64,000 bases of DNA from NCBI GenBank assembly GCA_018822545.1, contig JAHJKA010000022.1, forward strand, positions 1-64,000. Reading direction: 5' to 3'. The stretch's first letter is position 1. The number at the start of each line of letters is the position of its first letter. Shown here piece by piece: positions 13,383 through 15,444 of this stretch. Both the position numbers and the translations under genes were made by a program. This DNA comes from Pseudomonadota bacterium (GTDB taxonomy: Bacteria > Desulfobacterota > Desulfobulbia > Desulfobulbales > SURF-16). The notes beneath the pieces were generated by a model that searched no databases, was not told the origin of the DNA, and saw only the letters and a program-made list of their open reading frames with translations.

Positions 13383-14939
13383 TCAGCTAAAAAAACAGTA
13401 GGGGTCCTTTTCACTAAAAAAATCAAGCCCCATGCCATGGGTTACGGCCAGACAGCCGCCACAGGCAGCCCGTATCTTACAACCGTCGCAGGCCGCAGAT
13501 CCTGCCCTGTAGCGCTCGCCAGCCTCGGAATGATAGATCTCAGAGAGTGTGTTTTCACAGATATTGCCCATATATGATGGGAATTTACGACAGGCATGAA
13601 CCTCTCCCTCAGCCAGCAGGGACAGAAAATTGAAAGCCGCACCACAGCCATAACCGGTACACCCGCCAAAAGAAGAGCGGCCTTCGCGGGCAAACAACGC
13701 ATTGAGGTGGTTATCTTTGAGTCCCATGCAGGGGTTGTCCAGGGAGGCCGTATAATAACGCCGCAGAAAATCTTCATAGCCTTGGGTAGGGGCAGAGAGC
13801 AGCTGCGCGCCCTCACCCACCATGGCCAGACGGTTGAAGTTAAAGAGATCAACCTGGTTTCTGAGCACTTCAGCAAGGGGCAAAACCTGTTCTTGATTCT
13901 CCCTGGTCAGGGTCAGCATAACCATGGAATAGATAGCAAGCTCTTTCAAAATGGCCAGAAACTCGATGATCCGCTGGAAATGCCCGGCACCGCGAATATG
14001 GTCATTATGCTCCGCAAGGCCTTCCAGGCTGACCTGATAAAACTCTAAAGGCTGAATGGCCTGTAACTCTTCAAGCACCTCCCTTGACGTGGGATTGCCG
14101 AGAATAGCCAGCTGAAAACCACGCTCAGAGGCGGCCTGATAAAGCTCGCTGAAACGGGGGTAGAGCAACGGGTTGCCACCGGTGAAGGTTACCTGACCAT
14201 AGACATGGTGCTCGCGACAAAAAGACCGGAAATCATCAAGAATGGTGAGGGCCTGGGTAAAGTCGACGGCCTTGCGGCTCGTCCGGTCATAACAATGCTT
14301 ACAGTGCAGATCACAGGCCTGGGTGATATGCCATTGCAGGGTAAAGGCCGACGAGGAGAGATACCTCTTGGAGGTGAAATCATTTTCCTTAAAAACAGCA
14401 GGATCGCGGCGAATGGTGGTTGCCGGCACCAGGATATACTCCTCCTGTTCCGCCCGCTCAAGAATACGGTCAAGATAGGCAAAAGTCACCTGGTGCTCCC
14501 TGGCCGCCTGGGCCAAGTCGATATTCTCCTCAACAAGCTTTAATGCCAAAAGATCCTGGGGCCCGGCATTCTTATAACGCACCGCACCATTGGTTTGACG
14601 CCAGACCAATACCAACTGTTCGCCTGGTTTGCCCTCTTCATCACGCCCGGCCAGAATGGGAGCGAGATTCTGCCAATCAAACTGGGCAATACGTAAACTT
14701 GGATTAAGGACGATCTTATCAGCGGGTGGGGCCAGATCAACATCGAGCCGTTCCACTGCAACCAGCAACTGCTCGAGACGGGCAAGATCGGGGAGAAAGG
14801 CGGGTAGGTGTAAATCATCAACATGGTTGGCCAGCCAGTCAGCCATATCCAGGGACAACTCCTCATCATGGGCCTGAAGGGCTTGACAAAGAATTGCCAG
14901 GGAACGAGGGTAATCGGAAATCATATCTCTGCGTGCCAC
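13383..14939 (-). CDS. sbtM: radical SAM/SPASM peptide maturase, SbtM-like (selenobiotic system)
   Basis: 518-aa radical SAM enzyme with CxxxCxxC at C209, C213 and C216 (ACDLHCKHCYD) for the 4Fe-4S/SAM cluster. Its cysteine-rich C-terminal SPASM/twitch region (GGCTGYGCG, then CDGCKIRAACGGC) would hold auxiliary clusters. The N-terminal 190 residues include a helical section and a possible winged-helix, PqqD-like recognition element near 105-170 (inferred). It matches what I remember as the thio(seleno)oxazole/'selenobiotic' maturase family SbtM. Its likely substrate is the four-Sec peptide encoded immediately upstream on the same strand. The frame opens with GTG 14939; ATG 14924 is an alternative. 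A terminator separates it from the peptide gene, suggesting partial read-through. Confidence 0.82.
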   Translation of the reverse strand: MARRDMISDYPRSLAILCQALQAHDEELSLDMADWLANHVDDLHLPAFLPDLARLEQLLVAVERLDVDLAPPADKIVLNPSLRIAQFDWQNLAPILAGRDEEGKPGEQLVLVWRQTNGAVRYKNAGPQDLLALKLVEENIDLAQAAREHQVTFAYLDRILERAEQEEYILVPATTIRRDPAVFKENDFTSKRYLSSSAFTLQWHITQACDLHCKHCYDRTSRKAVDFTQALTILDDFRSFCREHHVYGQVTFTGGNPLLYPRFSELYQAASERGFQLAILGNPTSREVLEELQAIQPLEFYQVSLEGLAEHNDHIRGAGHFQRIIEFLAILKELAIYSMVMLTLTRENQEQVLPLAEVLRNQVDLFNFNRLAMVGEGAQLLSAPTQGYEDFLRRYYTASLDNPCMGLKDNHLNALFAREGRSSFGGCTGYGCGAAFNFLSLLAEGEVHACRKFPSYMGNICENTLSEIYHSEAGERYRAGSAACDGCKIRAACGGCLAVTHGMGLDFFSEKDPYCFFS

Positions 14940-14952
14940 CTGATGGGAAAAC

Positions 14953-14992
14953 TATAAAAAAAACGGGTTTACCGCCACCAGCGGTAAACCCG
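14953..14992 (-). terminator. strong terminator/attenuator between the selenopeptide and its maturase
   Basis: A 12-bp perfect stem (CGGGTTTACCGC / GCGGTAAACCCG) with a 5-nt loop is followed on the minus strand by eight Ts. It lies 14 bp before the maturase start. Such placement lets the short peptide message greatly exceed the maturase message. Confidence 0.85.
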
Positions 14993-15063: not shown

Positions 15064-15378
15064 CTATTTGCTGCTACCTCAGCTTGAGCCTGCTGCATCT
15101 TTTTTCTTTTCGACACTCCCGGTGTCGTCTTTTGTGCCACCTCAGCTGGAGGCGGCTGGATCAGCCGCCTTCTTTTCGTCAGCGCTCACGGCGCTGTCTT
15201 TTGTGCCACCTCAGCTTGATCCTGTCTGATGCTGTTCCCCGTCGGCGCCACCTGCGCCGGTTTTAGGCGGGCCTCAACTACTGCCGGCATGTGCCCCAGG
15301 AATAGCAACTCCTGCTCCGGCAATAAGTCCGGCGAGACCGAACCGTGCCAAAGTTTTCTTGAGCTCCTTGATTTCCAC
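15064..15378 (-). CDS. sbtA: multi-selenocysteine RiPP precursor peptide, SbtA-like (four in-frame UGA)
   Basis: 104 codons from GTG 15378 to TAG 15064-15066, read through four in-frame TGA codons (codons 35, 56, 79, 100; plus-strand positions 15274-15276, 15211-15213, 15142-15144, 15079-15081). GGAGG lies 6 nt before the GTG. Residues 1-31 look like a leader or Sec signal: basic start (KELKK, R12), hydrophobic FGLAGLIAGAGVAIPG, then AHA as a possible cleavage point. The rest is four units, each with Ser-Ser-Sec-Gly; units 2 and 3 share SSUGGTKD. Linkers of about 15 residues are rich in Lys, Asp, Ala and Gly. Each of the first three TGAs has a SECIS-like hairpin at identical spacing. The adjacent maturase gene fits the SbtA/SbtM 'selenobiotic' class recalled from the literature. 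A pseudogene is unlikely: four stops in the same codon context would not arise by decay. Confidence 0.88.
15111..15127 (-). promoter_or_regulatory. SECIS-like hairpin for the third UGA
   Basis: On the minus strand CGACAC and GTGTCG form a perfect 6-bp stem with loop CGGGA, starting 14 nt after the TGA at 15142-15144. The loop begins 20 nt from the UGA and has G as its second base, fitting the bacterial SECIS rules. Confidence 0.78.
15180..15196 (-). promoter_or_regulatory. SECIS-like hairpin for the second UGA
   Basis: CAGCGC and GCGCTG form a perfect 6-bp stem with loop CGTGA, starting 14 nt after the TGA at 15211-15213. It has the same architecture as the first and third but a different stem sequence. 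Confidence 0.78.
15243..15259 (-). promoter_or_regulatory. SECIS-like hairpin for the first UGA
   Basis: CGGCGC and GCGCCG form a perfect 6-bp stem with loop AGGTG, starting 14 nt after the TGA at 15274-15276. The AGGT loop resembles the apical loop of the classical fdhF SECIS. Confidence 0.8.
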
Positions 15379-15444
15379 GTTTTTCCTCCATTAACCAAAG
15401 ATTAAGAGAGATGCGAAGATTGCAGCTTACCAACCTCCACCCTT

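Follow-up and report, generated by a model that had tools for sequence, protein, structure and literature searches.

Hairpins after three in-frame UGA codons of an SbtA precursor gene are very probably bacterial SECIS elements and are kept by selection on base pairing

The window, that is, the whole stretch of 64,000 nucleotides analysed here, contains a short gene on the minus strand in which in-frame UGA codons are followed by small hairpins of the same shape and different sequence. The locus raises the question whether these UGAs are read as selenocysteine (Sec) with the aid of the hairpins, or whether the codons are ordinary stops and the pairing a by-product of the encoded peptide or a sign of some other RNA function. 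The gene, its neighbour and their parts are the following.

15064..15378, minus strand: SbtA precursor gene of 104 codons, running from a GTG start to a TAG stop, translated with TGA as U
15385..15389, minus strand: putative GGAGG ribosome-binding site, recognised from the sequence, 6 nt ahead of the GTG start
15298..15378, minus strand: SbtA leader (residues 1-27, the region that the TIGR04081 model covers), which resembles a signal peptide, then ...GAHA-G
15276-15274, minus strand: UGA1 (Sec35)
15213-15211, minus strand: UGA2 (Sec56)
15144-15142, minus strand: UGA3 (Sec79)
15081-15079, minus strand: UGA4 (Sec100), five codons ahead of the TAG
13383..14939, minus strand: SbtM radical SAM/SPASM maturase, the next gene downstream of sbtA

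The translation (VEIKELKKTLARFGLAGLIAGAGVAIPGAHAGSSUGPPK...GSSUGSSK) matches the NCBIfam model of SbtA, TIGR04081, with 36.3 bits (cut-off 30.5) over residues 1-27 of 27. Four in-frame UGAs are present, at residues 35, 56, 79 and 100, and the core Sec motifs are, in order, GSSUG, GSSUG, ASSUG and GSSUG, all of the GSxUG type. In its account of these hairpins the earlier sequence-only reading neither named the gene as SbtA nor mentioned the fourth UGA; the C-terminal end in its region, GSSUGS[SQ]K, is common to the sbtA genes of L048 and L049. Three congeneric sbtA orthologues support the gene call. The downstream neighbour matches TIGR04082 (SbtM) with 691 bits (cut-off 350) and has the Pfam domains Radical_SAM and SPASM. 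The gene is a new member of the already described SbtA family.

SbtA/SbtM is a thio(seleno)oxazole RiPP system; its source is Lewis et al. 2021 (Biochemistry 60:3347, as cited in PMC13188914), and work on SbtM is described in PMC11002830, where seleno(thio)oxazole formation in vitro is reported for an SbtM relative. The present locus resembles that system in its TIGR04081 leader, its adjacent TIGR04082 SbtM and its [GA]SSUG motifs, and also in having a SECIS directly past the UGA, as described in PMC11002830. A 2026 review lists this family, there named selenobacteriocin, with two Sec, and multi-Sec prokaryotic families with two or three (PMC13188914). Unlike that listing, the SbtA gene studied here has four.

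In a rival account every one of these UGAs is a genuine stop; translation would end at the first with a 34-residue peptide, and the remainder of the frame would be untranslated or in decay. UGA does act as an ordinary stop codon in this genome, since it closes the SbtM frame (13385-13383) with no SECIS-type hairpin there, and UGA is therefore not generally reassigned. General reassignment was rejected on this ground. Against true stops within sbtA, the frame and the GSSU-type motifs are kept in four congeneric genomes, the family model matches and the maturase lies adjacent, and selection acts on the stems past the UGAs, as described below. The Sec machinery of the genome is also complete, with all components above their cut-offs (SelB 365 bits, SelA 625, SelD 373, tRNA-Sec 72.8). 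We regard the reading of the UGAs as stops as extremely unlikely. The genome contains two SelD copies, one of them with an in-frame TGA, and its formate dehydrogenase carries an in-frame TGA as well; judged by eye, the loops of candidate hairpins after these SelD and formate dehydrogenase TGAs begin near +18 to +20.

The hairpins after the first three UGAs of sbtA have these positions and sequences (stem-loop-stem).

15259-15243, minus strand: SECIS hairpin 1, CGGCGC-AGGTG-GCGCCG, 14 nt past UGA1
15196-15180, minus strand: SECIS hairpin 2, CAGCGC-CGTGA-GCGCTG, 14 nt past UGA2
15127-15111, minus strand: SECIS hairpin 3, CGACAC-CGGGA-GTGTCG, 14 nt past UGA3

The sequence-only reading had described identical geometry in these three units, a shared spacer in two of them and stems that change while pairing is kept, and each of these descriptions was borne out. 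A 14-nt spacer, a 6-bp stem and a 5-nt loop were found at UGA1, UGA2 and UGA3, the spacer of units 2 and 3 is in both cases GGTGGCACAAAAGA, and pairs are changed on both sides at three of the six positions between units 2 and 3, at one between units 1 and 2 and at two between units 1 and 3. Such an arrangement is rare in the window. Among its 2545 TGA triplets (both strands), five are followed at spacing 14 by a hairpin of 6 bp and 5 nt whose second loop base is G, and three of the five are the sbtA units; the remaining two have weaker stems and no sensible frame. Six other TGA-hairpin matches in the window were examined, none of them in a sensible frame. An Rfam search of 14.5-16.0 kb gave no family above its gathering score, the weak matches being due to chance.

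In the published bSECIS model the apical loop lies 16-37 nt past the UGA, a G occurs within the first two loop positions, the stem has 4-16 bp, the loop 3-9 nt, and the minimum free energy is at most -7.5 kcal/mol (PMC13188914). The earlier proposal that a loop start at 20 nt and a G at loop position 2 fit the bacterial rules agrees with this model. The units are like the bSECIS consensus (Zhang and Gladyshev 2005, as relayed by PMC13188914) in their 5-nt loop, 6-bp upper stem, loop-2 G and apical loop at 20 nt, and they differ from it in that the element occurs three times per mRNA with fixed geometry. The energies of the bare hairpins 1, 2 and 3 are -10.6, -8.7 and -6.6 kcal/mol, respectively, so that hairpin 3 alone falls short of the model limit if this is applied to the bare hairpin; it also does not form in the lowest-energy structure predicted for the 50 nt past UGA3.

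It was of importance to determine how much of the pairing is owed to the peptide, since the repeats following the Sec residues (GAGGA, SAVSA, DTGSV) could have been selected as peptide, with the hairpins as their by-product. Motifs of this kind make pairing likely by themselves: after synonymous permutation an average of 4.2 of 6 pairs remains. When the codons of this sbtA gene were permuted synonymously within the gene with the peptide fixed, all three hairpins at spacing 14 were obtained in 26 of 20,000 permutations, and thus the peptide accounts for part of the pairing and not all of it. The sequence-only reading had called the internal covariation strong evidence that the structures are selected. 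Selection was upheld, while the strength of the evidence within the gene alone was not, because motifs such as GAGGA and SAVSA favour palindromic RNA; it is the silent-codon covariation across relatives that makes the case strong.

Pairing was followed first in the genus. Ten Sec units from four congeneric genomes retain pairing in all of their 60 pair cells, with changes on both sides at four of the six pairs, and the covariation score is 0.544 compared to 0.279 for shuffled and at most 0.19 for slid alignments. The earlier suggestion that orthologues should preserve the pairing was thus confirmed here, and likewise across the phylum. In two units (in L047 and L048) GGA (Gly) replaces UGA, and each of these has one broken pair, whereas the Sec units are intact.

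For the wider survey, SbtM loci were taken across the phylum, from named genomes and from the family, and the sbtA genes beside them were found by a leader profile, giving 83 genes, 80 of them distinct. Among the named genomes, the three closest (72-84 % identity) are two MAGs of Desulfobulbaceae and a third MAG that is labelled Pseudomonadota; the cultured relatives Desulfofustis glycolicus and Desulfospira joergensenii carry the locus as well. Of the 210 UGAs in the 80 genes, 72 have a perfect hairpin of 6 bp and 5 nt at spacing 14, compared to 0.8 % of other codons. Internal UGAs have a hairpin at spacing 10-16 in 95 of 140 cases, and 1000 within-gene synonymous permutations gave a mean of 12.2 (±3) and a maximum of 23; this excess of 95 over an expected 12 argues against the peptide as the sole source of the hairpins. 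A slightly wider spacing range gave 100 internal hairpins, every one of which has G as its second loop base. The perfect 6-bp stem is absent after 40 of the 140 internal UGAs; in most of these cases a 5-bp stem occupies the same position.

Spacing gives a second line of evidence. In 93 of the 100 internal hairpins it is 11, 14 or 17 nt. Near-stop UGAs have a hairpin in 45 of 70 cases, and there the hairpin lies partly or wholly past the coding sequence and the spacings 10, 12, 13, 14 and 15 each occur at least six times. This variety indicates that the RNA signal is free of codon phase once the constraint of translation is gone, and hairpins that reach past the coding sequence, with the codon phase vanishing at that point, speak against a mere consequence of the peptide.

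A third line comes from silent positions. Units were picked by peptide motif only, ignoring pairing, which yielded 80 distinct units in the 14-nt class and 27 in the 11-nt class. In the 14-nt class 96 % of the pair cells are paired, compared to 24-52 % when the positions are slid, and in the 11-nt class 97.5 % are paired. Within the stem, the third base of a Gly/Ser codon has as its partner the base that opens the fourth codon downstream, and in the 14-nt class the Gly/Ser third base is C with Ala in 22 units and T with Thr in 43, with no exceptions (P=8e-18, Fisher, shared ancestry ignored). The 11-nt class has one exception in 26 to the same link. With the first unit of each gene only, 21 C-Ala and 39 T-Thr combinations remain, again with no exception, and nine of ten genes that have both kinds of unit are consistent inside the gene; such within-gene switches depend much less on shared ancestry than the pooled P values. 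The link between third base and residue is absent from the other ORFs of the same loci (P=0.86). Silent positions thus track their stem partner in sbtA and control ORFs show nothing of the kind, and peptide-driven pairing as the sole cause was rejected on account of this silent covariation. We consider it very unlikely that the hairpins are a by-product of the peptide. What selection maintains is the RNA structure as such, even via the choice of silent codons, and the interpretation of the hairpins as bacterial SECIS elements selected for base pairing is supported by both the genus and the phylum comparison.

The fourth UGA behaves differently. No 6-bp/5-nt hairpin of the standard type was found after it, and the candidate element departs from the bSECIS consensus in its greater size and in its position in the 3'-UTR.

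15065-15029, minus strand: larger two-part hairpin, candidate SECIS for UGA4, past the sbtA coding sequence

This hairpin has a favourable folding score (z -3.3), and the genus retains it. Its apical loop, AUA or GAUAC, is about 29 nt from the UGA and outside the GG/GU pattern. At the 3' end of the L047 sbtA gene the fourth Sec codon is gone and a like large 3'-UTR hairpin is still present (z -5.2), which makes the role of the UGA4 hairpin uncertain; it may serve another role. The same observation is in favour of a more general view, that the hairpins of sbtA act in transcription pausing or termination or in mRNA stability and are near UGAs by coincidence, and a scan for terminator-like structures likewise picks up hairpins 2 and 3, though on the opposite strand. 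Against this, the spacing is counted from the UGA, the units match bSECIS including the loop-2 G, and both units without a UGA have lost a pair. An RNA role unrelated to the UGAs is accordingly given next to no probability.

Our overall explanation, which we hold with high confidence, takes hairpins 1-3 as bacterial SECIS elements, the UGAs of SbtA as codons read as Sec, and SbtM as the enzyme that then forms rings on the product; for Sec insertion and ring chemistry in this SbtA we rely on analogy with published work on relatives. Each internal hairpin is predicted to recruit SelB with Sec-tRNA for its own UGA, and the ribosome would read the UGA 14 nt upstream of the hairpin as selenocysteine. 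One short mRNA would in this way be translated into a precursor peptide carrying as many as four Sec in GSSUG-type motifs, and SbtM would turn the Sec (or Cys) residues into seleno(thio)oxazoles. The signal-like leader would direct export. Simple patterns applied to the leaders of the 80 genes found a lipobox-like Cys in 39 and an AxA-like site in 32 more, which suggests export of the SbtA product, possibly with lipid anchoring. In the gap between sbtA and sbtM there is a further element.

14964..14992, minus strand: strong intrinsic-terminator-like hairpin, 13 pairs, with a T tract (run of eight T)

A hairpin of this kind would yield precursor in excess of enzyme, uncoupling the expression of sbtA and sbtM.

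The SECIS stem would be written by the peptide motif [GSD]-[AT]-[GV]-[GS]-[TASV], five or six codons past the Sec. With the internal SECIS inside the coding sequence, a fixed motif writes the stem, locks the spacing at 11 or 14 nt in phase with the codons, and forces silent choices. The sbtA precursors of the set mostly have two or three Sec and up to six, with six Sec codons in L083 and five in L049, both above the figure that the 2026 review gives for multi-Sec prokaryotic families. In seven genes (L029, L030, L032, L045, L077, L083 and L099) paired UGAs separated by 3-6 codons precede a single hairpin, and in these the second UGA alone has the usual spacing, the first being 20-30 nt from the stem. 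To judge from this layout, one SECIS may serve both UGAs. The further idea that the post-Sec motif exists in order to write the SECIS stem and not for a function of the peptide, with one SECIS serving both paired UGAs, is put forward tentatively and we think it somewhat doubtful.

Cysteine codons of the set were used as a control for positions with no SECIS. Nearly all are without a hairpin having a loop-2 G, although the comparison is a loose one, since many of them encode the lipobox cysteine of a signal peptide and do not mark places where Sec was lost. The last core motif of L021, GGSGCSGQK, has a TGC Cys codon followed at spacing 14 by an intact 6-bp hairpin with a loop-2 G. This looks like a relic SECIS, and perhaps reflects a recent Sec-to-Cys change.

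The SbtA system and its SECIS are already known. Descriptions of the codon-phase lock and of the silent covariation were not met in a limited literature search, and these two features, together with four Sec in one member of the family (five or six in relatives), are apparently undescribed. Several Sec in one protein also occur in selenoprotein P of human and mouse, in which two 3'-UTR SECIS serve all 10 UGAs (PMC5133445); unlike this arrangement of two shared elements, SbtA has an element of its own for each internal UGA. With three like SECIS and four UGAs per short mRNA, sbtA is a natural test of how the ribosome passes successive Sec codons. With roughly 140 internal elements from some 80 genes, and with natural Sec-to-Gly and Sec-to-Cys changes, the family could allow the sequence rules of SelB recognition to be read from evolution. 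It also illustrates cleanly how, through RNA pairing, the silent choice at one codon is dictated by an amino acid encoded four codons away.
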